Positions 3,277-31,031 of a DNA stretch of 36,539 nucleotides are shown here, one piece after another. The notes beneath the pieces are model-generated. The model was not told where the DNA came from. It was given only the letters and a program-made list of their open reading frames with translations, and did not search any database. The stretch lies in the IMG/VR virus record IMGVR_UViG_3300008448_000284, positions 1 through 36,539 of that record; one strand, written 5' to 3'. How positions within the stretch are numbered: position 1 is the first letter of the stretch; each line of letters opens with the position of its first letter. Made by a program: the position numbers and the translations under genes. The DNA comes from a virus.

Positions 3277-3776
3277 CCGTTTATGCCAAGGTAGCTGGCT
3301 CTAATCTTGTTCAGTATCCCTATACGCTTGGGGATATGATGGCGGAGAATCCCTATACCAACTTCCCCGCCAATGCCGACTTGGCGGCCATCTTCCCTGT
3401 CACCGACATCGCCGTTCAGAATGGGTGGTCGTTGGCCCCTGTGGAATTTTTGTCCCAACCCTCTTTTGACCAAGCCTCTCAGGTTTGCGCGCAAGAGACG
3501 GCTCCCACGCTTATCAGTAATGTTTGGACCCTTGGCTGGGTTGTCAGGGCTATGACGGCTCAGGAGCAGGCAGAAGCGACATCTCAAAAGGCTGCATCTG
3601 TCCGGTCTGATAGGGATCAGCGTCTGGCAAAGACCGATTGGCGTGTTATAAAAGTTCTTGAAGCGGGTAGCCTGCAAGACTTTGACTGGGCTGCATACCG
3701 CCAGATGTTGCGTGATGTACCGAGCCAAGGTGGTTTCCCTTGGAATGTTACTTGGCCGACTGAGCCGGGAGCTTAA
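3273..3776 (+). CDS. Phage tail assembly chaperone-like protein
   Basis: The 167-residue protein ends with a pattern typical of the Phage_tail_APC family: RSDRDQRLAKTDWRVIKVLE, then a W-x-x-YRQMLRDVPSQGGFPWNVTWP block. Related proteins are encoded beside tail fibres and help fold or attach them. The N-terminal half, with an NPYTNFPANADL.AIFPV section, is common in fibre-locus proteins. AAGGAG lies about 9 nt upstream of the ATG, which overlaps the previous stop. Direct evidence is sequence pattern only; the partner would be one of the neighbouring fibre genes. Confidence 0.7.
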   Translation: MTVYAKVAGSNLVQYPYTLGDMMAENPYTNFPANADLAAIFPVTDIAVQNGWSLAPVEFLSQPSFDQASQVCAQETAPTLISNVWTLGWVVRAMTAQEQAEATSQKAASVRSDRDQRLAKTDWRVIKVLEAGSLQDFDWAAYRQMLRDVPSQGGFPWNVTWPTEPGA

Positions 3777-3778
3777 AC

Positions 3779-3985
3779 ATGACTATCCCCCGCGACCTAT
3801 CCAATCTTGCTCCGGGCGCTAATACGTCAGGCGTCCTTCAGCCGTCTAAGGGTGGCACGGGGCTGACATCTTCAGGTACGTTAGGAAATGTGCTAGTATC
3901 CAATGGCACAATTTGGGTGAGTCAAGCTCCTGCGGCATCTGGCGTGTCTGCTGGCAGGCTTTTCTTCACAGCTAACCTAAAGTGA
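3779..3985 (+). CDS. Short tail-fibre-like protein
   Basis: The 68-residue protein contains LQPSKGGTGLTSSGTLGNVL, the GGTG.T motif that recurs at the shaft of many phage tail fibres, here followed by an Ala/Ser-rich end. It looks like a short fibre segment encoded as its own gene. It starts 2 nt after the preceding stop and ends 9 nt before the next start, so it is part of the fibre operon. It could be a remnant of a longer fibre or a genuine minor structural protein. Confidence 0.55.
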   Translation: MTIPRDLSNLAPGANTSGVLQPSKGGTGLTSSGTLGNVLVSNGTIWVSQAPAASGVSAGRLFFTANLK

Positions 3986-3994
3986 GGAAATTCA

Positions 3995-4306
3995 ATGGCT
4001 TCTGGAGTTCTTGGAACAAGTGACTTGTCAGCGGCGACAAACACTTCTGTTTACACGGTGCCCAGCGCCAAGACCGCATCATTCTCCGTAAACTTTACCA
4101 ATAGGAACTCTGTTCCTGTTCAGGTTAGGCTTGCGGTTTCATCGTCTGGGACGCCCGCCAACGCGGACTATCTCATGTATGACGTGGCGTTAAATCCTAA
4201 CGTATCATTGGAACGCACTGGCTTGGTTGCGGAGGCCACTAAGATCGTGGTGGCTTATTCTGACACGGCTAGTGTTTCTGTTCAGGTTTATGGCTACGAG
4301 GAGTAA
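3995..4306 (+). CDS. Small beta-rich tail structural protein
   Basis: The 103-residue protein contains VYTVPSAKTASFSVNFTNRN, then VQVRLAVSS, a DYLMYDVALN stretch, LERTGLV and a final VQVYGYEE. This alternating pattern is that of a small beta-sandwich domain seen in tail-fibre loci of marine and freshwater phages, where it is taken as a structural or attachment protein. No catalytic residues are evident. GAGG lies 8-9 nt upstream of the ATG. It is followed 5 nt later by a long fibre-like gene. Confidence 0.6.
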   Translation: MASGVLGTSDLSAATNTSVYTVPSAKTASFSVNFTNRNSVPVQVRLAVSSSGTPANADYLMYDVALNPNVSLERTGLVAEATKIVVAYSDTASVSVQVYGYEE

Positions 4307-4311
4307 GCAAG

Positions 4312-5931
4312 ATGGGCGTCAATGTTATAAACGACACCTCGTCGCAAGATATTCGTATGCCTGCTGCCGCGGCAATCAGCTCTGGTGATTTGATTATTAA
4401 TACTGAATCGGGAAAGGCTTCTGTCGCCTCTGCGGGCTTAACTATTTCTCAAAACAACAATACGACAGCGGGCCCCTCAGCTTTGTGGGCGAATAATGCA
4501 TTAAGTAGTTATACAAGCTCGAGTGGCCAAAATCCGACTTCTCCCAACATTGTTCAACTTTCTACTGGTGGTATTGCTCTTGCGCTTCGGGGAGATCAGT
4601 CAAGCAGTTCTAGTTCAACACTAAAAATATTTTTTAGAAATCAGCTTGGTGGGGTTCCTTATTTCAATGTGACGGTTTCTTCAGCTACGATAGATAACCA
4701 GATTATCAGGTCTATGGGGTCTGTCGGCTTTGTGGTTGCTTGGGTTGAAAGCAGCACTACTCTCAAGTTTGCAATTTATTCTAATACTGGAACGGCAATC
4801 AAAGCCGCTACTACAGTATCAACTGTAGCATCATCTAATTTGCGGTATTTTAACGTCAATGTTTTGACTAATAACTATGTTGTCATTTCTTATAATAGAG
4901 GTGGGACATTATATTTTATTATATACGATACCGCCGGGAATGTGTCTGTTGCTGAAACAACTGTTGAGGCATCTTCCGCAACAAATATCAGCGTTCGCCC
5001 TTTAAGTTCGGGTGGGTTTGTTATTTATTATTATACTACAGCAGCTAAATTTGGAAGGTACAATAGTTCTGGCGTTCTTCAGGGTTCTCTGACCGCTATA
5101 AGTGGTTCTAGTTCTCTGTTTGATTTTGCAGATCAAACGCAAACATGTTTGGAATTAACAAATGGAAATCTTTTATTTTTGTTTTTGGATTCCAGTAATT
5201 GGCCTCAATTTGCCATTTATAATTCTTCTGGCTCTTCCGTAAAGACAGCAACAGATGTTCTTGGGTCAACTGTGACAAGGAACACCGGTTATGTTAGTAA
5301 TTCTCAGTTCCCCGGCGTTTGCGTCACGTCGAGTGGGTTTACAATTTTTACAAAAGGAACCAGTCAATGGTATTACGCATCATTTAATAGTGCCGGAAGC
5401 AACCTAATTGGATTTGCTACTGCGGGAGGCGGAATCAGTGAAAGTTCTACCAATACTGCCGTAAACACACTTCAGGCCTTTGACTTGGGCAACGCAGGCT
5501 TTGCTGTTTATACAAAAACTTATAATACCACTTGTTGTGGCGTAAATTACAGTAGCTCTCTTTTTTGCTCTTCATTGACCGGCGTGCTAATCGGGAATCG
5601 AGTTAATTTCCAAACAGCATCATCAACTGTAATTCAAAATCAATATGGCATTTTAACTTCAGACGGTTCCTTTTTTGGAAATTATTGGCATAGTGGCGGT
5701 TCTGGTCAGCTTTACGTGCAAAGTTATGCCGTCCAAAGAAAATCTGTAATTGGTGTTGCACGTAATTCTGTTTCGGCAGGCGGGACGGTTCGCGTTTCAA
5801 CTGTGGGCACATTTACGCTTAACTCTTCTTACGGAGCTGGTGGTACGTTTGACCAACGGTCGGCAACTGTTCCGGGAACAAAAGGCACCGTTCTTGGAAC
5901 CTCTGCGGTTCTATTTGGCTTATCTTCTTGA
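4312..5931 (+). CDS. Large beta-repeat tail adhesin-like protein
   Basis: The 539-residue protein starts with a short conserved-looking head (MGVNVINDTSSQDIRMP). A long Ser/Thr/Asn-rich region follows with repeated strand-turn units such as VVAWVESSTTLKFAIYSNTG and FVIYYYTTAAKFGRYNSSG, roughly 45-55 residues apart, suggestive of a propeller or FG-GAP-like solenoid. The end (SVSAGGTVRVSTVGTFTLNS) resembles a virion attachment segment. Base composition is clearly AT-richer than the lysis and virion genes downstream, fitting an exchangeable host-recognition gene. No enzymatic motif is seen. Confidence 0.6.
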   Translation: MGVNVINDTSSQDIRMPAAAAISSGDLIINTESGKASVASAGLTISQNNNTTAGPSALWANNALSSYTSSSGQNPTSPNIVQLSTGGIALALRGDQSSSSSSTLKIFFRNQLGGVPYFNVTVSSATIDNQIIRSMGSVGFVVAWVESSTTLKFAIYSNTGTAIKAATTVSTVASSNLRYFNVNVLTNNYVVISYNRGGTLYFIIYDTAGNVSVAETTVEASSATNISVRPLSSGGFVIYYYTTAAKFGRYNSSGVLQGSLTAISGSSSLFDFADQTQTCLELTNGNLLFLFLDSSNWPQFAIYNSSGSSVKTATDVLGSTVTRNTGYVSNSQFPGVCVTSSGFTIFTKGTSQWYYASFNSAGSNLIGFATAGGGISESSTNTAVNTLQAFDLGNAGFAVYTKTYNTTCCGVNYSSSLFCSSLTGVLIGNRVNFQTASSTVIQNQYGILTSDGSFFGNYWHSGGSGQLYVQSYAVQRKSVIGVARNSVSAGGTVRVSTVGTFTLNSSYGAGGTFDQRSATVPGTKGTVLGTSAVLFGLSS

Positions 5932-16917: not shown

Positions 16918-19599
16918 ATGGCTATTCCCACCCTTCCCGGTTTTAAGCGTCGTCGCCGTGGCGCGGGCCAAGAGGTCAACGACTTCGTCAAGGCGTTCCT
17001 TGCGACGAGAAAGTCGTTCGCGGACAGCGCTCTCGCTGAGAAGCGCGGCAAGCTCTACGACGCCCAGATTGCGCGCTACGAAGAGATGAACGCCGCGTCG
17101 AAGGAGCGCCGGGAACGTGTTGGTAAAGGCGGCTCTGGGGGTATAACCCAAGAGCAGATGGACCAGCACATTAAAAACTCTCTGGCTCCAAAAGCTCCTA
17201 GTGGTGACGGCGCTCGTGCACCGGAAGGGCGCACAGCGGTTAACGAAGATGGCGGATACTCTCCGCCGCTTGACCCGGCGGCGGCGTCGCGCGCCCGTGG
17301 AATTGAGGCCATCCCGCAGCAGCAGCAGGCTCCCGCGCAGCAGCCTCCTGTTGTTGAACCCCCGTCTGTGCCTAGAGAGATTAACCCCACGCTGGGCGAA
17401 CCTGAACCAAGAAGGAGAGCGGGGCTTCTCATAGAAGACGAACAGAACAATCGTCCTACAGAACTCGCCAGCTACGACAATGCTCCTCAACAGGACACCT
17501 TTAATAATTTTGAACCGGCGTATTACGACGCCGTACAGTATTCCGCCGAAGGCGGAATGATCCAAGACAACGGTCAGATGGCTCCTCTTGGCGAAGCGTT
17601 GGACGCAGCGCTGAAGAGCGTGCAGTCATCTTACGGTCTCGATCAGCGTGGCACCGCCGTGGACGATGGGTCTAACGCTTCAAACCTCGAAGCATTTGCC
17701 CGTAACGAAGGCGCAATGCCCGAAGAGACGATGACGGACCTTTTGATGACCGTCGATCCGAACTCTAAGGATAAGATCGCCGCCGTCTTGCAAAAGGTGT
17801 ACGGCTTTCATACGGGCAATGGCGACCGCGCCGCTGCCGCAGAAGCTGTAGGCAGTATCCTTCAGGCTGCGCGCCAAGAGTCCATGGACCTTGGGGCGAT
17901 TGCTATGGCGGCTATTGAACAGCGTGACTTCATGGCCGCTGGCGAAGCCCTTATTGACGCCTATAACAAAGTTCCTGATGGGCGTTACGTTGAAGGTAAC
18001 GTCGACGAGCGTGGTGTTGGCGAAGCGCTTATTCGTGACGCGCAGACTGACAAGGTTGTTCAGCGGATGCCGTTGAACCCTCAGACGCTTCAGATGGCGG
18101 CGAAGCGCTTCCAATCCGGTGCGGACTACTACAACCATCTTGCTCAGTTCGCCCGTCCTGTGCAGGCCCCGCGCCAGCGGGTCGCGCTTGCGTACGAAGG
18201 TGGTCCCATCGAAGACGAGCCTGACACGATGTCTGCAATAGATGAAGCGGACAGAGAAGACGAACGTCTTGTTGAAGACCTTTCGCTAAACGAAGATGAG
18301 GCGCAGGCGGCTCCAGTAGCCCCGCAGCAGGAAGCTCCCGAAGCTGGCGAAGCCGATCTCCCGTATAGCGGGAATGGGCAATTTGTTGAGGGGCGGCTTC
18401 CTGAACAGCCGATCCCTGAGCGGAACTACGTGCCTTACCTTCCCGGCATGAACGCTACGCAACGTCGGCAGATTGATCTTGCTAACGGTCGACTCAAAGA
18501 ACGCTACAACCAACGAGATGCGCTTGCCAAAGAGCAGCGCGCTAGGCAAGAAGCTCGCGACAGGGAAGAGCGTGGCAGGCGAGATGCCGACCTAAGAACA
18601 GTTTACACTCAAAATAGGGCTGACCAGCGTTCCGCCGCCTCTGCCGCGCAGGCTAGAGACCTTGATAAAATACGCGCAGAAAGAGCCGCCGCCATTGCGG
18701 AAGAAAATCTTAGGCAGAGAGACTCCGCCTACGTTCTTCGGCGTAATCTCGAACCGCTTGACGAGCAAGAGCGTGTACAGCGCGAACGTGAAGGTACGCT
18801 CGAACGTGAAGCCTCTCGTATGAGTCTCTCAGGCGAAGACTATCAGGCGTCGCCTATCGCCGCGCGTACTGGCATGAGGCGCGAGAAAGATGTGGAGATG
18901 CCTGCGCGTAGCCAAGCGCGCGACTACGAGCGCCTCAATATGACGACGCGCGCCATGCCTAAGTATGAAGGTGGCGACAGGGATGTAATTAAGACCGAAC
19001 TGGAGAGCTACGCGCGGACAGTTGAACCAGATAAGTACGGTTATGTTGACCCCAAAAAAGCAATCGACTTAAAAGTACTTGATGCTCAACTTGGGTCGCG
19101 ATTTGTTTCGCGTATGCAGGACGTAGCCTACAAGATCACAGAGGGCAATAGACTGTCAGAGGGCCGCGCTGCTGAGACAGCGTTCGACGCAATCATGAAG
19201 CAGGACGTAGCTCCGAGAGCTACGAGAAGCGATCAAGGTTGGCGCGTGACGGTTGGCAATAGAACTGTCTTCATGGATGGCGATACGTTCCACGAGCTTG
19301 GCCTTCTTCGTCTGCAACGAAGAGGGCAACTAGACAAAGTTACCAAAGAAAAAGTAGCTAAAGACACCGCGGAAAGAGAAGACGAAGGGGCCACACTTGC
19401 CCGTCGTCGGCAAGAGATTGACGATACGCGGGCGTACGTCGACGCTTTTGGCCGTCAGACGACGGGGTTTCGTCGTCGGCAAGAAATCGAAGACGAACGT
19501 GCGCGGCGCGAAGCAGAAGCTTTATCACGAGCGCCTGCGCCTAGCCAGTTCCAGCCATATCGTTCTCGCCTGCGGTCGCGGCTTGCTATACCGGAGTGA
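16918..19599 (+). CDS. Large internal virion protein
   Basis: The 893-residue protein has a basic N-terminus (PGFKRRRRGAG), a Pro/Gln-rich linker near 135-150, and a compact helical section around 205-410 (EGGMIQDNGQMAPLGEALDA through FQSGADYYNHLAQFARP). The C-terminal half is long and highly charged, rich in Arg/Glu/Ala heptads. No enzyme motif is recognised. Size, composition and position between another internal virion protein and the giant protein suggest a scaffold or ejection protein of a podovirus-like particle. Confidence 0.6.
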   Translation: MAIPTLPGFKRRRRGAGQEVNDFVKAFLATRKSFADSALAEKRGKLYDAQIARYEEMNAASKERRERVGKGGSGGITQEQMDQHIKNSLAPKAPSGDGARAPEGRTAVNEDGGYSPPLDPAAASRARGIEAIPQQQQAPAQQPPVVEPPSVPREINPTLGEPEPRRRAGLLIEDEQNNRPTELASYDNAPQQDTFNNFEPAYYDAVQYSAEGGMIQDNGQMAPLGEALDAALKSVQSSYGLDQRGTAVDDGSNASNLEAFARNEGAMPEETMTDLLMTVDPNSKDKIAAVLQKVYGFHTGNGDRAAAAEAVGSILQAARQESMDLGAIAMAAIEQRDFMAAGEALIDAYNKVPDGRYVEGNVDERGVGEALIRDAQTDKVVQRMPLNPQTLQMAAKRFQSGADYYNHLAQFARPVQAPRQRVALAYEGGPIEDEPDTMSAIDEADREDERLVEDLSLNEDEAQAAPVAPQQEAPEAGEADLPYSGNGQFVEGRLPEQPIPERNYVPYLPGMNATQRRQIDLANGRLKERYNQRDALAKEQRARQEARDREERGRRDADLRTVYTQNRADQRSAASAAQARDLDKIRAERAAAIAEENLRQRDSAYVLRRNLEPLDEQERVQREREGTLEREASRMSLSGEDYQASPIAARTGMRREKDVEMPARSQARDYERLNMTTRAMPKYEGGDRDVIKTELESYARTVEPDKYGYVDPKKAIDLKVLDAQLGSRFVSRMQDVAYKITEGNRLSEGRAAETAFDAIMKQDVAPRATRSDQGWRVTVGNRTVFMDGDTFHELGLLRLQRRGQLDKVTKEKVAKDTAEREDEGATLARRRQEIDDTRAYVDAFGRQTTGFRRRQEIEDERARREAEALSRAPAPSQFQPYRSRLRSRLAIPE

Positions 19600-19607
19600 T
19601 AAAAACA

Positions 19608-22600
19608 ATGGCCGACCAATTCGAGTTCGACATGGAACGCCGCGACCCAACGCTTAGGCCGACGGCTGACAGAGAACTGTTAGATGTCGCAAGAGCTGCT
19701 GGTATAGACGTTTCTCAATACGCCCCGCCTAGTGTAGACGAACGTGTTGGGTTTCGCGAAGTTACAGAGAAAGATAGAGAAGCGACGTGGGGCGATTATG
19801 GACGTGCTCTTGGCGCTGCCGGATTAGACGTTGTTGGGGGTATAGGCGCGGCGACGGAGTACGCAACAAGAGGCGCTATTGGTGGCGACACGCGGCGCTT
19901 CTTTAGTGAAAGCGCAGAAGGAGTCCGCAGCCGGATGTCTCCAGCGGGGCGGCAGGCGCTTTCCGCTGAGTTTCTTCCAGAAGAAGGCGGCGTTAGCGTC
20001 CTCGACAACTTTACCAGCTCCATGGGGCTGAAGTCCGTTAGTATGATCCCGGCGTTCGTGACCGCTGTAATTCCCGGCGGGATTGTCGGTTCTGTACTTC
20101 GTTCAGCCGGTGCGTCTACTGCTAGAAGCGCCGCCGCCGCTGCTGTTACCGCGAAGGGAACGTCTGGCGTTATGAACGCGGGCGAGGTCGCCAGCCAAAT
20201 CTATAGCCGCGTTGAAAAACTTCCCGACGAAGAGCTGCGCCGCCTTTCTCCTGCGTACGACAACTATCGGTTCATGATGTCGGAGAAGGACGCACGCCAA
20301 GAATACATGAGAGACGTTGCTGGCGCTGCTCCGGCAGCGGCGTTCTTGCTTTCTTACACGCTTGGTGGGCTTGAAGGTCAGGTCGCAGGGCGAATTGCAG
20401 GTGCCGGTCCAATCGGGTTTGGCCGTGGCGCGCTTAAAGGTGGTTTAGCCGAAGGCAGACAAGAGTTTGGCGAGAGCGCAGGCGGAGAGTATCTGTCTCA
20501 AAGCCAACTGTTCTCCCAGATTGCCGACCCTATGAACTGGCAGAAAATACTGTCACAGGGTTTGGAAGGCTTAACGCTTGGAACTTTTACTGGTGCCACT
20601 ATCGGCGGCGTCACCAACATCGGTGGAGGCGCGCGCCCAGAAGCACCGCCGCCCGGTGGTATAAACCAAACATCGGACCTTGGACCCGACGCTGCACAGC
20701 AGGCAGCGCTCGCTGCTGGCGCTACCCCGCCGCCGCCCGGCGCTGGAGCAGTTACCACTGAGGTAACCACTCCCGAAGCTGCCGACACGATCCAAGCCCA
20801 GCAAGAGAAGCTGGTTAATGGCGAAGTGCCTGCGATGCTCTTCCCGGTCGGCACGCAGGAACTTGCGGTGCCGGAAGGGCTTGCGCGCGTTGAGCGTCCA
20901 GAAGGCGTCGTTCATTACGACCCAATGTCGATTAACGCACAGCAGGCGGAGCGCCTGCCTGTTAACGAAATACTTGGCTACGTGCAGCCGAAAGAGGAAG
21001 TGCTTCAGCGCGCCGCTCGTGGCGAACCCGCCACCGTTGTCGCCGAGACAACGCCAGCAGGACGCGAAGTTCGTGCAGCGGCGGTTAGCGCCACACAGGC
21101 TCCGGCGCAGGCGCAGGTGTTTGAGCAGACCGCGACGCCGGGCAACCGCGTTGTGGAAACGACGCCGGAAGCTATTCAGCGGAACCGTGGGCTCGACATT
21201 CTCAGCCAGCGAGACGAAGAGACGCTGCAAGGCTACCGTGATCTGCGTGACAGCACGCCTGTTTATCCGGCGGTAACGCCGGGCGAAGCGCGTAGTGTAC
21301 GTGGCGACCGCCCCGTGCGGATGACGCGCGAGCCGCCAAGGCAAGAACGTATCGCCGCTGAAGAAGAGTACGATCAATACCTCGCTGAGCAGCGCCTTGC
21401 CCGACAAGCAGAGCAGGAAGCTAGGCGGGCTGAAGAAGACATGGCTCGCCGTGCCCGTATGCAAGAGGGCATGACCAAGGCGGAGCGTGCGATTGCCGTA
21501 GCGAAAGCGCGTGCAGAGGCTGCTCGTCCTCGGTACCCAGAGGTAAAGCAGACAGGCGTACGTACGGAACTTCCGCGTACAAGTACGCCCCTTTATCCTG
21601 CTGGGCGGTTTGCCAATTTCACAACGGAGCCGACGGCGAAGCAGAAAGCTTTGGCCGCAGCGCGTGCTCGCGAAGAAGCTGCTCGCGAAGAAGCTGCTCG
21701 TAAAGAAAAAGCGAAGAAGCCTAAGAAGCCCAGACAACCGAAGAAGCCGCAGCCACCGAAAGACGAAGCGCCGTCACAGCCGCCAGCTCCTACGGCCAAA
21801 CCTCCGTTGGAAAAGATCAGCGGGTTCTGGGTTTCTCAGGCAGAGAAGCGCGCCGAAGAAGGGGCTGCGCGTGCGGGTAAGCAGCGCGGCGTCGGCACGG
21901 GCAAGCGTGGCCCCGAAGAAAAGGCTCGTACCGCGCAGATGCGCGCGGACGCCCGCAAAGCGTTTGAAGAGAACGCGCCGGGCGAAGACGAACTTTATGG
22001 TGGGAAAGCGCAGACCGATCTGTTCAGGCGTACGAAGCAAGAGCCGTCGCGATTTGTTCAGACCAAAGAGCAAGCTGCGGCCCTCAAGAAACGACTTGAG
22101 CGTGTTGTCGCGCAGGCTGAAAAAGCCCGCGAGCTACCGCAATCCATCCGCGAAGGACAAACCGATTTCGTTCTCTTCGCTCGTATGGCGAAGGACGCGC
22201 TCACTTACTACGTTGGTAAAACGGACGCGGCGTCGCTTGAGAAGACGAACGCATGGGTTGCCGATGAACTAGCGGCACGGGCTGGTGACTTTGAGCCGAT
22301 GCGCAAACGTCGTCTCGAAGAAGGTTATGCCGCAAAGCAGCGTCAGGCGTCCGCCGATGAGATGATTGAGACTGCGGGTACGGGCGACACTGGTCGCAGG
22401 ATCGTAGCCGCTACGACTACCGCAGACATTCAAGAGCAACTCGATCAGGCCGACGAAGCGGCACGTTTCGAGGCGGCGCTTGAGCGGCTTCAGGAGATGC
22501 TCAGCGTTAGCCGCGAGCTGACACGCGAGCAAATCCAAGAGCTTGCCGATATTGCTGGACGCGAAGTCGCCGACTTCGAAACCTTCCAGCGCGCGCTGTC

Positions 22601-25600
22601 GTCTGGTGACAAGCTGTCGTCCCCGCGAAACGGCAATGTGAACGCGGCTCCGCGCGCGCAAAACGAACAGAACTTGCGTGAAGCTTTAGCTCGTTTGTTT
22701 AGGGTGATGGCGCAGCCGAGCAAGCAAGCCGCGCTGGATGCGGCCTATGAGCGTCGCGCCGCAGGGCTAGAGAAGGCTAGAGAGGAAGCAGGGCGTCCGT
22801 ATAAGCAGATTATCGAACTGCCCAACGGTCCTACGTTCGTCTCTGGGTCTGCCAGCGTCGGTAATTCGCCGGTCTACGTCGAGCCCGAAGCCACGCTCAC
22901 TGTGCGAGACGCTCTGAACAGCCTAATGGATTACAAATTAGGCCGCTTGTCGCCGGTCTATAAATACATCGCACGGCTCGTCATCCGCCTTGCTGGCGAC
23001 GTTAAAATCTACGTCATCAGCGACGCCAATATGGATAAGATTGGCTATGCGAATGATGATGGCTCCTATTTTAGAACCGCCGACGCTATCTATGTCCGTC
23101 AATCCATCAATGAAGATTTCCAAAGACAAGCTGCGGTGGTGCTTCACGAGGCGGCGCATGCCGCGCTCGTTAACCGCGTTGTGTCGGACCCGCTGGCGAT
23201 AGGTCAGCTTGAAGCAATTGCGCGTCATGTCCTAAAGCATTTCAACGGTTCGCTCGACGGCGCGTATGGCTTCTACAATGCGCAGGAGTTCTTAGCCGAA
23301 GCACTGTCGAACACGAACTTCCAGAAGTGGCTGATGAACGCGCCGCTGACCCCCGAACTTGCAAGGCTCTTGGACCTCAAGGCATGGCGCGGGCGCTCGC
23401 TGTGGTGGGGTTTGCTTAACCGCTTCGCGCGTTGGTTCGGCATGGGGCGTTTCGGTGAAAACGAATACACCGCTATGCACGCCGTCATGTCTGTCACAGA
23501 GCGTCTGGCGGACAACCGCCCGCCGCGTTTTGTGAAAGGATGGGAGCAGGAGTTTTCGATTAACTTTGACCCAAAGGCCGACTGGTACGCCCTGTCGCCT
23601 TTCTGGGAAAAGTACATCGCCGATGAGCAAAAACAGTCAAACGCGCCCGACAGCCTTGCGTCTCGCAAGCAAGAGTTACTAAGCGGGGTAAGCGACCGGG
23701 CTGCGGTCACGAGTAGCTGGCTTAGCCGTGTTGCTATTGTTGGCAGCACGCTCGATCAGCTTCGCCAGCAGTACGCCGGGCTCTTCACTAACAAAGACGG
23801 CACGGACCTGCTTGCAAAGCTTGTGCAGGCGATGCAGGAACAGGCACCCTATGCCCGTGTGAAGAAGCAGGAAGCTGACCTTCTCGCGCAAGACTTCATT
23901 CGCTTCACAAAGAATAACGCTACCGAAGCGGCGGAACTTGTCGACATTATGATCGACGCCACCATGTCCAACGTGCGGCTCGGTACGGGGGCGAGCAATA
24001 CGCATCTCGACAAGGGCTGGCGTGGTATTCAGGGCAAGACAAATCTTTCTAGGCTTCAGAAAGAATACGCGGCGCTTAGTCCCGAAGCGCAAGCGCTCTA
24101 TCAGAAGATGGCTAAGTTCTACCGCGACACTCAGAACGAAATGACGCGCGGCACCATCGGCAATGTGCTGGATGAGCTGGGCCTTAAACCCAAAAACCGT
24201 GAAGACTTCATCACTCGCGTCATGACAGGCACGATGACGCCTGCGGATGAGACGCTCCTCAAGGATAAACCTACCGCGCTCAAAGCGTTCAAGGACGCCA
24301 ACGAGATGCGGGTTATTCAGGGCGACTACTTCCCGCTTATGCGTCAGGGCGATTACGTCGTAGTCACCACGGACAACATCAAAGACCTTATGGGCGGTAA
24401 AGAAATCTCGCCCGGTAAGGTTGAGTTCCGCGCGCGCACCCGCGCCGAAGCGATGAAGCAGGCTAATGCCTTCATCGCGAATACGGACCTGCGCGTGCTT
24501 AGTCGTCGGGTAGTAACTGACGACGCTGCAACCACTAATGATTTTGGCGTCATCGTATCTGTCCAGCGCAACGGCGTGTTCTTCTTCGAGCGTGAGAGCG
24601 ATGCCCGCAAGTGGGCTCGTGAAAATGCCGGAGACTACGACCAAGTGTCCGATGTCATGCCGCGCCGTGAGACCGGAGCGGAGTCCCGAGACCTAACGGT
24701 TGCGCAGTTCAATGCTTTGATGGGGGCGATCAACAGGCAGGAAGACGCGCCTGAAGCCACCAAAGACACGATGCGGGGTATCATCGAGCAGGCTGCGGCC
24801 CGCATGATGTCCGGCAATCGCGTGCAGAAACAGCGTATCGCTCGCCGTAACGTCGAAGGCGCGTCTAAGGACTTCGCCCGCAACCTTCTGCTCTATGGGC
24901 AGTCGACGAGCGGTTACCTCGCGAAGTTACGCTACGCTCCGCAGGTCCGCGCGGCTCTGAAGGAGATGACTGAAGTCTCCAAGGACTACATGGACAAGCA
25001 CGCAGCTACTCGCGTTCGCTTGCTCAACGAACTTAATAAGCGCGTCAACGACGGCGACACCGGGGCCAATGAGCCGCCGCGCTGGATGCGCGACCTCATG
25101 ACGGTTACCTACCTGTCCAAACTGTTCTCGCCGATGTACTCGGTCGTGAACGGTATGCAACCATGGATGGTAACTTACCCCGTGCTTGCTGGCCGGTATG
25201 GCAACATCGCAAGCTGGCGGGCGCTTCAGGACTCGTACAAAGCGATTGGTTTCTTTGGTCGCGCTTGGGACGGGCTGGTTAACACTGGCCGTTCGGTGAA
25301 AGACTTTAACGACGTTGCGTTTGATACGCGCGACGTTGTGGGCAGCATCAAGAAGAACCTTGCCAAAGAGAAGGACGGCGCGGAACTTGTTCAGCTCATC
25401 GACATGCTCTTGGAGCGTGGCGCTATGAGCGATGCTGGGTTTGAGCTTAGCCAGTCTATCGCAGAAGGTCGCGGCAAAGTTGGTACGGCTTTCTCGCACG
25501 TTGACCGCGTCGCGCGGCAGATGCCGCAGACGGTGGAAGAGATTAACCGTGCAGTTGCGGCAATCGCGGCGTACCGCTTGGCTAAGTCGCGGCCCAACGT

Positions 25601-26573
25601 CAGTGCGGAGAAAGCGCGCGCTGCGGCGTTTGACACCGTGATGAACACGCAGGGCGATTACTCTGGTGGTAACGCTCCGCGCTTCTTCAACAATCCGATC
25701 CTGCGCCCGGCGTTGCAGTTCAAGAAGTACGCTCAGATGATGACGTATCTTCTGGTCGACGCAACGTATCGCAGCTTTGATGGCAAGATCAGCTCGGAAG
25801 AGCGCGCTATTGCCCGCAAGCAACTTCTGAATGTCTTTGCTGTTCAGATCATGATGGCGGGTATGCTCTCACTGCCGGGCATCGAAATCGCCAAGATGGC
25901 GTTCATGATCGCAGCGGCGTTTGGCTTCGGCGAAGGCTGGGACGATCAGGAAGAAAAGCTGCGGAAACTCGCCGACGAGACGTTTGGCAAGACGTGGGGC
26001 GAGCTTGTCTCGCGCGGCGTCGTCTCTCGTGCCCTCAACATCGACCTATCCAAGCGCCTGTCGCTCGCAGATATGTGGACGTTTGGCGAGCCGAAGAAAT
26101 ACGACAAGGAGAACCTTGGCGCTTACGCCTTTAACCTCACGTTTGGTGCGCCCGGCGGTACGGTCATGGACATCGTTGACGGCTTCCGTAAAGTCGGTGA
26201 CGGCGAATGGAAGACCGGCCTAGCCCAGATGCTTCCGATTAAAGTCGTCGCCGATGGGCTACGCGCCGCCAACGGTTACTCCGAAGGTAAGGTGACCAAC
26301 GTCGAACTGGCAATGAACGTCTTTGGTGTTCGTTCCGGTCGACAAGCTGAGAAGTCGGAAGAGATTGGTTCCAACATCCGCAAAATGCAGGACATGGAGA
26401 CCGCGTATAAAACGCTGTCTCGTCAGTACATGCGGGCGCAGACTGCGGGCGAACGGACGCTCTTACGGGCGCGGATTGCTGAACACAACAAGGCCGCGCC
26501 GCTGCGATACAAAGTCTTCCCCAACGCGCTTGACCGGCGTCGGGTGCAGAACGAAAAAGAACGGGTGAACTAA
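19608..26573 (+). CDS. Giant internal virion/polyvalent-type protein with zinc metallopeptidase motif
   Basis: The 2321-residue protein starts at ATG 19608 (GGAG about 11 nt upstream; GTG 19596 is less likely). It has several Gly/Ala-rich hydrophobic segments in the first 350 residues, a Lys/Glu/Pro linker near 670-730, and a zincin site AVVLHEAAHAALVNR with H1180, E1181, H1184. A third ligand is probably E1227 or E1231 in NAQEFLAEAL. A long helical region follows, with a hydrophobic stretch near 2080-2107. Such multidomain giants resemble ejected 'polyvalent' phage proteins. Roles may include envelope passage, host-protein cleavage or early takeover. Two exact copies of a 15-nt unit encode part of the linker. 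Confidence 0.7.
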   Translation: MADQFEFDMERRDPTLRPTADRELLDVARAAGIDVSQYAPPSVDERVGFREVTEKDREATWGDYGRALGAAGLDVVGGIGAATEYATRGAIGGDTRRFFSESAEGVRSRMSPAGRQALSAEFLPEEGGVSVLDNFTSSMGLKSVSMIPAFVTAVIPGGIVGSVLRSAGASTARSAAAAAVTAKGTSGVMNAGEVASQIYSRVEKLPDEELRRLSPAYDNYRFMMSEKDARQEYMRDVAGAAPAAAFLLSYTLGGLEGQVAGRIAGAGPIGFGRGALKGGLAEGRQEFGESAGGEYLSQSQLFSQIADPMNWQKILSQGLEGLTLGTFTGATIGGVTNIGGGARPEAPPPGGINQTSDLGPDAAQQAALAAGATPPPPGAGAVTTEVTTPEAADTIQAQQEKLVNGEVPAMLFPVGTQELAVPEGLARVERPEGVVHYDPMSINAQQAERLPVNEILGYVQPKEEVLQRAARGEPATVVAETTPAGREVRAAAVSATQAPAQAQVFEQTATPGNRVVETTPEAIQRNRGLDILSQRDEETLQGYRDLRDSTPVYPAVTPGEARSVRGDRPVRMTREPPRQERIAAEEEYDQYLAEQRLARQAEQEARRAEEDMARRARMQEGMTKAERAIAVAKARAEAARPRYPEVKQTGVRTELPRTSTPLYPAGRFANFTTEPTAKQKALAAARAREEAAREEAARKEKAKKPKKPRQPKKPQPPKDEAPSQPPAPTAKPPLEKISGFWVSQAEKRAEEGAARAGKQRGVGTGKRGPEEKARTAQMRADARKAFEENAPGEDELYGGKAQTDLFRRTKQEPSRFVQTKEQAAALKKRLERVVAQAEKARELPQSIREGQTDFVLFARMAKDALTYYVGKTDAASLEKTNAWVADELAARAGDFEPMRKRRLEEGYAAKQRQASADEMIETAGTGDTGRRIVAATTTADIQEQLDQADEAARFEAALERLQEMLSVSRELTREQIQELADIAGREVADFETFQRALSSGDKLSSPRNGNVNAAPRAQNEQNLREALARLFRVMAQPSKQAALDAAYERRAAGLEKAREEAGRPYKQIIELPNGPTFVSGSASVGNSPVYVEPEATLTVRDALNSLMDYKLGRLSPVYKYIARLVIRLAGDVKIYVISDANMDKIGYANDDGSYFRTADAIYVRQSINEDFQRQAAVVLHEAAHAALVNRVVSDPLAIGQLEAIARHVLKHFNGSLDGAYGFYNAQEFLAEALSNTNFQKWLMNAPLTPELARLLDLKAWRGRSLWWGLLNRFARWFGMGRFGENEYTAMHAVMSVTERLADNRPPRFVKGWEQEFSINFDPKADWYALSPFWEKYIADEQKQSNAPDSLASRKQELLSGVSDRAAVTSSWLSRVAIVGSTLDQLRQQYAGLFTNKDGTDLLAKLVQAMQEQAPYARVKKQEADLLAQDFIRFTKNNATEAAELVDIMIDATMSNVRLGTGASNTHLDKGWRGIQGKTNLSRLQKEYAALSPEAQALYQKMAKFYRDTQNEMTRGTIGNVLDELGLKPKNREDFITRVMTGTMTPADETLLKDKPTALKAFKDANEMRVIQGDYFPLMRQGDYVVVTTDNIKDLMGGKEISPGKVEFRARTRAEAMKQANAFIANTDLRVLSRRVVTDDAATTNDFGVIVSVQRNGVFFFERESDARKWARENAGDYDQVSDVMPRRETGAESRDLTVAQFNALMGAINRQEDAPEATKDTMRGIIEQAAARMMSGNRVQKQRIARRNVEGASKDFARNLLLYGQSTSGYLAKLRYAPQVRAALKEMTEVSKDYMDKHAATRVRLLNELNKRVNDGDTGANEPPRWMRDLMTVTYLSKLFSPMYSVVNGMQPWMVTYPVLAGRYGNIASWRALQDSYKAIGFFGRAWDGLVNTGRSVKDFNDVAFDTRDVVGSIKKNLAKEKDGAELVQLIDMLLERGAMSDAGFELSQSIAEGRGKVGTAFSHVDRVARQMPQTVEEINRAVAAIAAYRLAKSRPNVSAEKARAAAFDTVMNTQGDYSGGNAPRFFNNPILRPALQFKKYAQMMTYLLVDATYRSFDGKISSEERAIARKQLLNVFAVQIMMAGMLSLPGIEIAKMAFMIAAAFGFGEGWDDQEEKLRKLADETFGKTWGELVSRGVVSRALNIDLSKRLSLADMWTFGEPKKYDKENLGAYAFNLTFGAPGGTVMDIVDGFRKVGDGEWKTGLAQMLPIKVVADGLRAANGYSEGKVTNVELAMNVFGVRSGRQAEKSEEIGSNIRKMQDMETAYKTLSRQYMRAQTAGERTLLRARIAEHNKAAPLRYKVFPNALDRRRVQNEKERVN
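20752..20766 (+). promoter_or_regulatory. TTACC-N5-GGTAA dyad, copy 4
   Basis: Perfect arms with centre ACTGA, extended to GTTACC/GGTAAC (20751-20767), within the giant gene (codons V-T-T-E-V-T). It is co-oriented with transcription. Confidence 0.55.
21666..21695 (+). repeat. Two tandem 15-nt units in giant-gene linker
   Basis: GCTCGCGAAGAAGCT occurs twice in direct succession and is followed by a degenerate third unit up to 21710. The repeat is in frame and encodes A-R-E-E-A units of the charged linker, so expansion or contraction would not shift the frame. Confidence 0.8.
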
Positions 26574-26842
26574 TGGTTGGTAAGCGCGACCCCAGCTCGC
26601 ATCGCACTCCCGAGCAAATCCGCAAGATGAACCGGGAGTACGACTCCAAGCCCCACAAGATCAAGCAGCGCGTGATGAACAAACAGGCGCGGCGGATGTT
26701 GGAGAAAGAGGGGCTGGTCCGTAAAGGTGACGGGAAGGATGTTGACCACATTCGTCCCGTGCGCAACGGCGGGTCTAACTCTCGGAAGAACCTTCGTGCA
26801 CTTCCTGCGTCGAAGAACCGGGGATGGCGAGATGGTGTTTAG
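26573..26842 (+). CDS. Small HNH-like nuclease protein
   Basis: The 89-residue protein has the C-terminal half of an HNH motif: DVDHIRPVRNGGSNSRKNLR followed by ALPASKNRGW. H59 and N73 fit the catalytic His and Asn, and N82 takes the position of the last His or Asn. The N-terminal CxxC pair of many HNH proteins is absent, as in several small phage HNHs. It follows the giant gene with a TAATG overlap. Its last 68 nt overlap the end of the convergent DnaA-like gene. It could be a DNA packaging/processing nuclease or a homing-type remnant. Confidence 0.65.
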   Translation: MVGKRDPSSHRTPEQIRKMNREYDSKPHKIKQRVMNKQARRMLEKEGLVRKGDGKDVDHIRPVRNGGSNSRKNLRALPASKNRGWRDGV

Positions 26843-27065
26843 CCGCGTAACGCTGAACACCGTGTAATATTGTGGTGTGGTGCTTACCGCCGCTACGCAT
26901 ACCGATCAGGGTGTAGCTCAGGTCGGTCTCTTGTTTAGCCCGCCACCATGCTTCCTGCCGTGCGTTCACAAACTTATCGTGGCGGTCGTGGCCGTCGAAT
27001 TGTTCTTTCGTAACGCCGTGCTTCTTGCAGACTTCTTCTTTGATGTCCGTGAAAAATTTCCGCAT
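26775..27065 (-). CDS. Stand-alone DnaA domain-IV-like protein
   Basis: The 96-residue protein resembles the C-terminal DNA-binding domain of the initiator DnaA: EEVCKKHGVTKEQF, then ARQEAWWRAKQ (35-45), DLSYTLIG and GGKHHTTILHGVQRYAAKH. In DnaA the last block normally reads [RK]DHTTV, where the Asp contacts the DnaA box; here Asp is replaced by His62. No AAA+ domain precedes it, so it could bind DNA but not open an origin alone. It might recognise DnaA boxes as competitor or recruiter. It is the last gene of the leftward block, with GAGGA upstream of the ATG. Confidence 0.75.
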   Translation of the reverse strand: MRKFFTDIKEEVCKKHGVTKEQFDGHDRHDKFVNARQEAWWRAKQETDLSYTLIGMRSGGKHHTTILHGVQRYAAKHHLAIPGSSTQEVHEGSSES

Positions 27066-27605
27066 CTAGTCCTCGCATGAATATACTTCTCTCTGCACGG
27101 TGAGAGAGGGCCAACCTATGTCTTTTGTGAAGCTCGTGTCTATGAACTTTACACGGTTTGTTGGTTGGATAGTTAAACGACCAAAGTCTGTACGCAAGAA
27201 CATAAACTCTTTGTCTTGCGTAGGCTCTGCCGTAAATCCATCGCCTACAGGTATAACCGTAAAAAGATAGGAGCATGGAAACTCCAGCTCCTTTATCCGT
27301 ACTGCGGCTTGTAACCCCGTGAGGTAAGTGTACTCGTGGACCGAGAACTGCGAGCCGTAGCAGTTCCACATCTGCGCGTAAGACAAGTCCCACCTTTCAA
27401 GGTCTTCTTGCCACGTCAGCGCGTGCGGGGGTAGATTGCGAAACACGGCACCGCTCTCCAGCATAACCGTGCAGCCCCACGCTCTAGCCGGATGGGAGTG
27501 CAGCCCGAACCATATAGCTGGGATCACGCCCTCCAAACCAACAAACTCTCCAAGCACGTAGACGTACTGGTGTTTAGGTAACGACCCGGAGGCGGTGTAG
27601 AGCAT
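27066..27605 (-). CDS. Conserved phage protein, unknown function
   Basis: The 179-residue protein has no motif I can assign. A hydrophobic centre (LEGVIPAIWFGLHSHPARAW) is followed by a block containing GDGFTAEPTQDKEFMFLRTD and FGRLTIQPTNRVKFIDTSFT, which I recognise only as recurring in hypothetical phage proteins. There is no signal peptide and no clear metal site. The start overlaps the gcrA stop (TGATG), and the next gene begins one base beyond its own stop, so it is co-transcribed and probably coupled with both regulators. Confidence 0.55.
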   Translation of the reverse strand: MLYTASGSLPKHQYVYVLGEFVGLEGVIPAIWFGLHSHPARAWGCTVMLESGAVFRNLPPHALTWQEDLERWDLSYAQMWNCYGSQFSVHEYTYLTGLQAAVRIKELEFPCSYLFTVIPVGDGFTAEPTQDKEFMFLRTDFGRLTIQPTNRVKFIDTSFTKDIGWPSLTVQREVYSCED

Positions 27606-28129
27606 CAGTCGTTTCCATATACGAAGCTATTGAATCCGGTCTGTTTGAACTTTTGCCTCGGGCGTTCCCCCGTGGGCTTAATCCATACCATAGGTTTATG
27701 ATGTTCGCAGTATGGACGTTTGGGGCTAAGGCCGGGGTTACCACAGAAGGTATGTTGGTCGTTGTGTCTACCGATTGGAAAACGGCAGTCGGATAGTTTT
27801 TCTAGTTCGGTAATGTACAGCCCGGATTTACGAAGGCTTGATGTAACTACGACTGGAGTATCGACCCAATCGGTTGGCGTTTCGATGTTGAAACGCTTTG
27901 ATAGGATTGGACGTTTACGTCGTTTGTCAGACTTCTTGCGTTCTACCCGCTGCTTACGTGTAGGTTCAGACGGTTTGTTGTCCTCGAAATCTGGGAGTAG
28001 CCCTGCTACTTTCATGCGATGCACCCTCCCGACGATGGAGTTTTTGGTGACGCCTAGTTTGTTCGCAATCTCGCTCCGCGACATACCGGCGTACAGCATC
28101 TTCTTTATAAGCTCGTTAGCCCTGTCCAT
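27605..28129 (-). CDS. gcrA: GcrA-family cell-cycle regulator
   Basis: The 174-residue protein has the two GcrA signatures. The N-terminal helix-turn-helix includes LIKKMLYAGMSRSEIANKLG and TKNSIVGRVHRM. The C-terminal part has LEKLSDCRFPIGRHNDQHTF with CGNP, and PYCEHHKPMVW, giving C115, C129, C141 and H143/H144. In Caulobacter GcrA binds sigma70 and promoters with methylated GANTC sites. ATG 28129 is preferred because GAGGAAG lies just upstream and it overlaps the primase stop. A long basic linker separates the two parts. The phage copy may redirect host cell-cycle transcription or activate phage promoters. Confidence 0.85.
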   Translation of the reverse strand: MDRANELIKKMLYAGMSRSEIANKLGVTKNSIVGRVHRMKVAGLLPDFEDNKPSEPTRKQRVERKKSDKRRKRPILSKRFNIETPTDWVDTPVVVTSSLRKSGLYITELEKLSDCRFPIGRHNDQHTFCGNPGLSPKRPYCEHHKPMVWIKPTGERPRQKFKQTGFNSFVYGND

Positions 28130-31031
28130 TATCTTCCTCGAAAAATTCTTCTTCGTCGACCGCAGCAAACTCCGCCAGCGGCGTGCCCTTAGCTTGGAAC
28201 TGCCACACGTACTCTGTGCCGAGCGCGTACTCGGTGCCAGCCCCTAAGCGACCGGGGAATTTCGTAGCGGCGAACTCGCGCGCCATGGCCTGCGTAAACA
28301 CGGTCGTCGACACATGCCGCTCTTCCAGCCACTCAGTCAGCTTGTCGGCACCGATGCGAATGACGTTGTCCTCGATGCCAACCTGCACGTACAACGCCTT
28401 GAGGCGGGAAGCGTCGCGCTTAACTTGAATGGAGCCGCGCGCGGGCTTGCCCTTACTCAGATGTACCTTGTTGGTATAGAGCGTGTTCTCCGCACGATGA
28501 CGGTTCAAGAACTGCGTCAGGATGCTGGAGACATTGAGCTTCTTCGTCATGTCGACCGGCTGGGAAGCCTTGTCGTTACGTAGCTTGGTAACTGCTTGCG
28601 CGAAAAATTCTTCCATCGCAGGGATGTCAATTTCTGTCAGCTCTAGCTCGTTGGCGTATTCTGCGCCGAGCAAGCAGCACGCTATCGCACCCGCCCAGTA
28701 CCGCTCCTCCTGCGTCCACTCGAACTTCTTCGTGAGCCGCACGTCCAGCTCCCGAAGGTCGGCGTCGACACGTTCATGGTTCTCACCGAGGAACTCAGCA
28801 TACTTGCGCCCCGCCCAGCCGAAGTTGTGTTTGAGTTTGGCGATGCTGGTCGTGAAGTGCTGGTCTTTCGTGATGTTGCCAGTCGGCGGAGGCACGACGA
28901 ACTCGAACACGCGCACCACGCCAGCCACAGTCGTGCGGTTGCCGCGCGTGACGTACTCGATCAGGCTGTCGTTAGAGGCGATGAGCATGAGCGTCTGCCA
29001 GTCACCGCTCTCCTTGATCTGCGCTTGCTGCGTCAGTCGGTTCTTCTCTCTACCGCTCGTGAGCTTGAAGACGGTGTTCACAAACCTGCGCGTGTCGTCC
29101 TCGCTCTTCAGCTCGTCCCAGAACATAGGCAGGTTTTTGAGCTGCCCCATCTTGTTCAGCACTGAGAGCTGCGTGTCGTCGAGAGACTGTACTGCCTTGT
29201 GCGGGTCGCCCCATACTGCTTGCGCCACAGAGATCGCGCTACTCTTGCCGATGCCGCTCTCAACAGAGTAGGCGGACAGCATGAAGCCGTTCTCGCCCGT
29301 GAACATCGTCAGCGGCCCTGCAAACGCACAGGCTAGAATAACGTCGAGCGCAGGGCGCTTCTGGTCCGTGATGAGCTTCGCGGCGTAGAGCCACGGGTCC
29401 GACATGCCAGATGGCTCGTAGTGGCGGGCAAGCACGGGATTGGGATTGGCGGCAGGGCGAGGCTCGCCCTTGGAGAATACCATGCCCGCGTAACTAAACC
29501 CTTCGATGTTGCCGCCGTTCCTCGGAATAACCCAGCCGAACGGTGTCGACGTGACGATTGAATTTTCCTTCTCGCGGAGCTTGTCGACCCATCCCATGAG
29601 GAAGTCCTTCACTAACTTTTGGTTGCTCTCTTTGAGCGTCATGCCGAACAGAGCGACGTGCTTCGCGAACTCTGCCTTCGCATGGAGATGCTCGAACGGG
29701 ATGCCGACTTGCTCGCGCTTGCCCTTCTCAACCATCGTAGAAAAGTTGAGCACCCACGGGTTACGCTGCATCCAACCATTCGAGAACGGATAGTTGGAGA
29801 TTACCTGCTTGGTAACCGATCCATCTTCGAGGGGGATCGACAAGTAGATGAGATCGTTGGCGTCTCGTGAGTAGCCCTGCGGCAGATCGTCGTCTGCTTT
29901 GGTGGTTTGATGGGTTTTAGGCGTGAAGTGCAGCGGGCTCTTGCCGTCGAAGCGGTGCGGGCACGCATTGCAGTCCATGTGTCCACTAGCGGAGATGGTG
30001 TTGCAGGACGGCCAGCCCAGATTTTTCTTCTGTTTCTCTGCTTCCTTGCGGTCGAACAGCGCGTCAGTCGCCTCGGGATCGTAGCCGGAATGGCCCTTCG
30101 CCATCTCATGCGCCATAACCCGCCCGTCTTCGGCGAATGTGGCGATGAACGTGGTTAGGTTCCACAGCGGGTTCGTGTAGGCAGCGCCGCCCGTATCGAG
30201 GGCTTCGCGTATGAAGGCGCACTCGGGCTTCAAGTCTTCGAGTTTAACCGGAGCCGCCTTGCCCAGATCAATGCCAGCGGAGAGATCATCCGTGCCGCTC
30301 ACCGTGGGGCGAGCAGGGAACGCAGGAGCCGGTGCGGCAAACGGCGAGAGCGCAGCGCGAATGTCCTCCACGTCGCAATCGTCGAACGGCGGCACGAGGA
30401 ACTGCACGTCCCCCGGCGGGTCGTACTTGTAGTTGTGCGTGTCGGGGATGCGGAGTATGCGCGCCGCGTCGATGGTGCACTGGCTGTCGCACATGAGCCC
30501 ATGCGTACGGGTCGCTTCGACAAGTTGGTGGGCGAGTACGCTCCACTCAGCCTTGTCGATGGCGTCCTGCAACACCCAATGAACGTGAAAGCCGCCAGAG
30601 CCGGAGGCTACTACGAAAGTAGGACGCGGCAGTCCGACGGCCCTGCGAAAGTTACCAAGCGCGGTAACAGCAGCTTGAGTATCTGGGTACGCCCCAGCCT
30701 TCACGTCTACGTCGATGAAGAGCGACTTGAACTTTACGGCGTTATCGCCAGACCGTTTGGCGTTTAGATATTTGTTCCCAGCCTTGGAGACTTTTTCTTC
30801 GGCCTCGCTCTGCATCGACATGCAGACATAGAAGTCGCGGTTCTCTGGGCTCTTAACAGCCCACGCCAGATTGCGGGTCGCTTCGTCTACAGTGCGTGAT
30901 GCGCGACCGTTCCAGTACGGCTTGGGGGCTCCCGCACGTACAGTCGTCCAATGTACGTTGACGAAGCCCTCTTGTCCCTGCGGCCATGCGACGGCCCTCG
31001 ACAGGAACTCGCGTGCGTTCTCATATGCCAT
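28116..31031 (-). CDS. Primase-helicase (AEP primase fused to P-loop helicase)
   Basis: The 971-residue protein combines two replication enzymes. Residues about 90-210 form an archaeo-eukaryotic-type primase: FIDVDVK (D107, D109), SGSGGFHVHW (143-152) and IDAARILRIPDTHNYK. A Cys cluster at 343-357 (C343, C354, C357, with H359 nearby) may bind zinc. The C-terminal half has a Walker A ESGIGKSSA (K596) and a Walker B LPMFWDE (D639, E640), followed by a sensor-like MLIASND block, as in D5/DUF927-type helicases. It would unwind and prime phage DNA. The upstream gap holds a strong GNRA hairpin. Confidence 0.85.
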   Translation of the reverse strand: MAYENAREFLSRAVAWPQGQEGFVNVHWTTVRAGAPKPYWNGRASRTVDEATRNLAWAVKSPENRDFYVCMSMQSEAEEKVSKAGNKYLNAKRSGDNAVKFKSLFIDVDVKAGAYPDTQAAVTALGNFRRAVGLPRPTFVVASGSGGFHVHWVLQDAIDKAEWSVLAHQLVEATRTHGLMCDSQCTIDAARILRIPDTHNYKYDPPGDVQFLVPPFDDCDVEDIRAALSPFAAPAPAFPARPTVSGTDDLSAGIDLGKAAPVKLEDLKPECAFIREALDTGGAAYTNPLWNLTTFIATFAEDGRVMAHEMAKGHSGYDPEATDALFDRKEAEKQKKNLGWPSCNTISASGHMDCNACPHRFDGKSPLHFTPKTHQTTKADDDLPQGYSRDANDLIYLSIPLEDGSVTKQVISNYPFSNGWMQRNPWVLNFSTMVEKGKREQVGIPFEHLHAKAEFAKHVALFGMTLKESNQKLVKDFLMGWVDKLREKENSIVTSTPFGWVIPRNGGNIEGFSYAGMVFSKGEPRPAANPNPVLARHYEPSGMSDPWLYAAKLITDQKRPALDVILACAFAGPLTMFTGENGFMLSAYSVESGIGKSSAISVAQAVWGDPHKAVQSLDDTQLSVLNKMGQLKNLPMFWDELKSEDDTRRFVNTVFKLTSGREKNRLTQQAQIKESGDWQTLMLIASNDSLIEYVTRGNRTTVAGVVRVFEFVVPPPTGNITKDQHFTTSIAKLKHNFGWAGRKYAEFLGENHERVDADLRELDVRLTKKFEWTQEERYWAGAIACCLLGAEYANELELTEIDIPAMEEFFAQAVTKLRNDKASQPVDMTKKLNVSSILTQFLNRHRAENTLYTNKVHLSKGKPARGSIQVKRDASRLKALYVQVGIEDNVIRIGADKLTEWLEERHVSTTVFTQAMAREFAATKFPGRLGAGTEYALGTEYVWQFQAKGTPLAEFAAVDEEEFFEEDNGQG
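29801..29815 (-). promoter_or_regulatory. TTACC-N5-GGTAA dyad, copy 5
   Basis: Perfect arms, centre AAGCA on the coding (minus) strand, extended at one side to GTTACC, within the primase-helicase gene (codons V-T-K-Q-V-I). It is co-oriented with transcription. Confidence 0.55.

Follow-up and report, generated by a model that had tools for sequence, protein, structure and literature searches.

What a bacteriophage gains from a copy of GcrA, and whether such a copy still works as its host counterpart does, is the question raised by one gene in an uncultivated virus. GcrA is a cell-cycle protein of bacteria and directs the host RNA polymerase to methylated DNA, and GANTC is the site of the methyltransferase CcrM. 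The gene is found in IMG/VR record IMGVR_UViG_3300008448_000284, the whole 36,539-base stretch of which was analysed and is called the window here. The record is probably a fragment of a phage genome, because the nearest isolates are ~61 kb long. The gcrA-like gene lies in a replication operon and overlaps both of its neighbours:

28116..31031, minus strand: primase/helicase (DUF927), upstream of gcrA; 14-nt overlap with the gcrA start
28135..28139, minus strand: ribosome-binding site GAGGA, read from the sequence, 5 nt before the gcrA ATG and within the 3' end of the primase gene
27605..28129, minus strand: gcrA-like gene, complete, 174 aa; ATG at 28129, stop at 27605-27607
27066..27605, minus strand: phrog_3704 gene, downstream of gcrA; 1-nt overlap with the gcrA stop (TGATG)
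26775..27065, minus strand: stand-alone DnaA domain IV (DnaA-box-binding domain), 96 aa; Pfam Bac_DnaA_C, E 1.2e-16

A first, sequence-only reading had placed a phage-encoded GcrA at 27605-28129, and these coordinates are correct; the gene is intact and runs on the minus strand, and the plus strand of the same interval has stops throughout. The same gcrA reading frame is present in a second contig, with one mismatch across 8,642 nt of the locus. Exact peptide patterns of gcrA, the primase and DnaA domain IV found one near-identical contig among the viral contigs and nothing else, and the gcrA pattern had no match in the genome collection; only one other sequence of this gcrA, near-identical, is known. 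The GC content of gcrA is 0.49 overall and 0.54 at third codon positions, compared to 0.59 and 0.74 for the primase gene before it, which is compatible with a separate acquisition. Scans of the window for sigma70 promoters and terminators gave chance-level results only, and a search of the window for a CcrM-type methyltransferase found none. On the plus strand, at 19596-26573, a gene for a protein of 2,325 aa belongs to a family without known function (phrog_37402).

The product of the phrog_3704 gene has its closest phage match, 47% identical, in a Pseudanabaena phage; 'ferredoxin' and PurM-like labels for this gene were judged unreliable. The DnaA domain IV gene starts right behind it, two genes on from gcrA in the same operon, and its product might rival host DnaA in binding to DnaA boxes. 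DnaA domain IV is also found in 14 of 50 GcrA-bearing contigs and in none of 42 primase relatives that lack GcrA. It is absent from all 12 contigs of the Atu_ph08 clade, though 11 of them have GcrA, and a GcrA-DnaA partnership is thus not upheld as a general rule.

Both GcrA signatures that had been read from the letters are present: the helix-turn-helix (HTH) SEIANKLGVTKNSIVGRVHRM and the C-terminal CRFPIG...FCG...YCEHH. The protein passes the Pfam GcrA profile (PF07750) with 74.6 bits against a cut-off of 26.9 (E 1.5e-20, profile positions 8-144 of 155). A phmmer search matched the GcrA chain of 7ye1 over residues 6-149 (E 5e-10) and, with the HTH domain, 5yiu (E 2e-4). With these E-values, and with the same reading frame in a second contig, the match is not a product of chance. 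The NCBIfam equivalog model NF050816 gives 50.1 bits, far below its cut-off of 280, and as a protein query the window GcrA has no significant match among phage records. On its sequence, the protein is a diverged member of the known GcrA family, and phage GcrA itself is not new. In the control list of the genome searches, Pfam GcrA also came out above cut-off in the archaeon Sulfolobus acidocaldarius, which is unexpected for this family.

An AlphaFold model, computed with 42 sequences from the window, phages and hosts, consists of two confident modules (residues 1-40 and about 101-150) that are joined by a loose linker:

27995..28129, minus strand: DNA-binding domain, residues 1-45, three helices; pLDDT 90-97 over residues 1-40
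27821..27994, minus strand: linker, residues 46-103; low model confidence, pLDDT mostly ~57-66
27674..27820, minus strand: sigma70-interacting domain, residues 104-152, with C115, C129, C141 and H144; pLDDT 83-92, matched by 5yix_B

The best Foldseek match of the model in the Protein Data Bank is 7ye1_G (probability 1.00, E 6.9e-3). The C-terminal module superimposes onto the sigma-interacting domain 5yix_B with a TM-score (target) of 0.78 and an rmsd of 2.1. The unordered linker keeps the TM-score of the whole chain low, and the evidence therefore rests on the sequence and on the separate domains. Sequence and model together show a predicted HTH, a flexible linker and a conserved, predicted sigma70-interacting domain; the gene belongs to a replication operon and overlaps that of the primase.

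Sixty-six alignment columns, conserved in at least 80% of 80 host GcrA proteins, served as the reference. Of these the window protein retains 31, and the other phage copies between 26 and 55. The C-terminal core is intact (C115, P118, G120, F128, C129, G130, Y140, C141 and H144). At the N-terminus the invariant host Trp is missing, and a second Trp is replaced by Leu. The recognition helix reads KNSIVGRVHRM, compared to RNAVIGKVHRL in hosts, and its changes include Arg to Lys. The host-invariant set formed by the two Trp residues and RNAVIGK is thus not preserved. Since several host-invariant residues are lost, recognition of methylated GANTC is not to be assumed for this protein.

The linker had been described as longer and more basic than in host proteins. 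Neither statement holds against 78 host GcrA proteins: the linker has 76 residues, the host median being 74.5 (range 51-95), and its net charge of +6 equals the host median. The fraction of Lys and Arg (0.237) does exceed the host maximum of 0.195 in these 78 proteins, but is offset by acidic residues. The linker is also poorer in proline than those of the hosts.

Phage GcrA has been published for phiCbK (PMC3556154), Agrobacterium phage Atu_ph08 (PMC6630229), Pam5 (PMC9382816), brucellaphage Y17 (PMC11836647), a coral-associated phage (PMC11309003) and Sinorhizobium prophages (PMC12429752). The C. crescentus protein as query matched 31 phage records and 78 IMG/VR contigs. The phylogeny that the sequence-only reading had called for was calculated from 94 rows of host and phage GcrA. 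In it, phage copies are not gathered into a single group separate from the host copies; the window protein is the longest branch in the tree (end branch 1.93), and its placement is unsupported. Full GcrA is rare in the clade defined by the window's primase, where none of 42 relatives reaches the GcrA cut-off.

The host can be approached from the DNA itself. The window contains 37 GANTC sites where 117 are expected from trinucleotides, a stronger depletion than in any other of the 16 palindromes of like form; within coding sequence, 37 sites compare with 82 +- 6.5 after shuffling of synonymous codons. GANTC is known to be under-represented in CcrM-bearing alphaproteobacteria (PMC3973325). When the primase and the internal virion protein are compared, the closest isolates are Rhizobium phages, at ~41% identity. 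Because GANTC is avoided and the nearest isolates are Rhizobium phages, the host is probably a CcrM-bearing alphaproteobacterium. The phage would be a podovirus-like one.

GANTC avoidance was also considered as a mark of GcrA function and was rejected, since relatives without gcrA avoid the site more strongly, often to 0 to 0.25 of expectation. In the stretches examined, members of the window's primase family (L016, L034, L035, L036, L042 and, as L003 and L255, Rhizobium phage RHph_TM27A) have 0-2 GANTC where 38-128 are expected; TM27A has none at all. Avoidance extends over the whole clade and does not depend on gcrA, and so speaks for the host and not for GcrA function.

GcrA or its C-terminal part was also seen in three 'cyanophages', Pam5 (L268), Yong-M4-211 (L269) and Mwe-JY25 (L271), which have a GC content of 63-69% and GANTC at 0.23-0.36 of expectation. 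In cyanophage PA-SR01 GANTC is little avoided (0.82). The true hosts of the first three may be alphaproteobacteria present in non-axenic cultures.

The reading that we prefer, and to which we give about even chances, is that the window protein is a phage GcrA-family sigma70 cofactor, a takeover factor acting most likely at methylated promoters of the host. Host GcrA binds region 2 of sigma70 and methylated promoters (PMC7403470, PMC3667746). By analogy, the C-terminal domain of the phage protein would dock on region 2 of host sigma70, while the HTH domain would bring the sigma70 polymerase to selected promoters, of which host promoters carrying methylated GANTC are the likeliest candidates. 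As a result, S-phase and replication functions of the host would be raised or prolonged while the phage DNA is copied. The low equivalog score and the loss of host-invariant residues, the N-terminal Trp among them, count against this reading. Reprogramming of the host cell cycle by a phage GcrA was proposed for phiCbK in 2012 (PMC3556154), and is plausible for the window protein, as the first reading had suggested.

The changed HTH leaves room for another destination. The C-terminal domain might hold sigma70 while the HTH leads the polymerase to middle or late phage promoters instead of methylated GANTC, a logic like that of other phage proteins that appropriate sigma factors. Besides the invariant residues lost from the window HTH, partial and rearranged GcrA forms in other phages argue for this. 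In RHph_TM27A, whose lack of GANTC was described above, EVB29_066 (L003:3309-3524) is a protein of 71 residues, annotated as hypothetical, that consists of the GcrA sigma-binding domain alone. Contig L093, a phage of the window's primase family, encodes at 3592-4326 a protein in which two Myb-like HTH repeats are followed by a GcrA-like sigma-binding domain, at 25.0 bits just under the Pfam cut-off. Both genes occupy the same neighbourhood, flanked by genes for an exonuclease and a VRR-NUC protein. The GcrA match in the 11 of 12 Atu_ph08-like contigs often begins inside the HTH section of the profile or only after it. Thus the DNA-binding part is of GcrA type in the window, absent in TM27A, formed by Myb-like repeats in L093 and strongly diverged in the Atu_ph08-like phages. 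These few cases suggest that what phages keep is the sigma-binding part. For the window protein itself, however, the HTH is still recognizably that of GcrA, the changes in its recognition helix are mostly conservative, and no phage promoter motif was identified, so that redirection to phage promoters is possible but somewhat unlikely. Extended to alphaproteobacterial phages in general, the idea would be that phages use the GcrA sigma-binding domain as a portable module for hijacking sigma70, with the DNA-binding part deleted, replaced or retuned, and that many of the phage 'GcrA' proteins do not depend on methylation to act; this is offered tentatively, as a proposal that may well be wrong.

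A protein that merely occupied sigma70 region 2 or the GANTC sites could block the host GcrA programme. The single-domain protein of TM27A, from a related Rhizobium phage, would suit such a decoy, and most known sigma-repressors are phage proteins (PMC7403470). The complete two-domain layout of the window protein would be superfluous for this purpose, however, and we consider the decoy role improbable here.

The first reading had also raised the possibility that the protein reads the host methylation state to time phage genes; in the version considered here it would sense methylation on the phage's own DNA. The window gives this no support, as none of its 37 GANTC sites is intergenic. Their absence from intergenic DNA is weak evidence, because less than one site is expected in the 698 intergenic bases at the overall density of the window, and the promoters of the operon are probably outside the contig. 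One window site does lie close to the start of the gene that follows gcrA, 27 nt ahead of it. In Atu_ph08, 7 of 45 GANTC sites are intergenic against 2.2 expected, although TANTA (11 sites) shows a similar ratio; four of these GANTC lie within an intergenic stretch of ~100 nt (L256:44842-44937, record positions 56842-56937) upstream of a leftward operon. On the other side, Pam5 and Yong-M4-211 have no intergenic excess of GANTC, and a published scan found GcrA sites in phage genomes to be without positional bias (PMC9437464). A timing role is accordingly unlikely, to about the same degree as a decoy.

That gcrA is a drifting passenger without function would agree with its sporadic occurrence among the primase relatives and with its long branch, but is highly improbable for a gene with an intact frame, a good ribosome-binding site, overlaps with both neighbours and two domains that are confidently folded in the AlphaFold model.

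The preferred reading, a sigma70 cofactor acting most likely at methylated host promoters, thus concerns a long-known kind of protein. Phage GcrA has been annotated since 2012, and none of the papers found tests its role in infection; novelty would lie in such a functional test. The strongly diverged window copy lends itself well to the question of which residues sigma70 binding and recognition of methylated GANTC require.

Among the known systems, C. crescentus GcrA (7ye1, 5yix, 5yiu) shares with the window protein the HTH, a similar linker length and the sigma-binding domain with its CxxPIG...FCG...YCxxH pattern. The window copy differs in being a phage gene in a replication operon, and in the multiple alignment its identity to the GcrA proteins of hosts is only 23-30%. 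PhiCbK gp222 and the GcrA of other Caulobacter phages (PMC3556154) are likewise phage-encoded and similarly diverged, with 35 of the 66 reference columns kept compared to 31 in the window. They belong to an unrelated phage type, however, their linker carries a net charge of +17 where that of the window has +6, and BLAST does not match them directly to the window protein. Gp5 of Atu_ph08 (PMC6630229) is of the GcrA family too, and its phage shares the internal virion protein with the window phage, but its HTH is more diverged, its gene is located before the terminase, and it is near-core in its clade. The nearest phage isolate, Rhizobium phage RHph_TM27A, has the GcrA sigma-binding domain in common with the window; its EVB29_066 lacks the HTH domain and is encoded at another locus.
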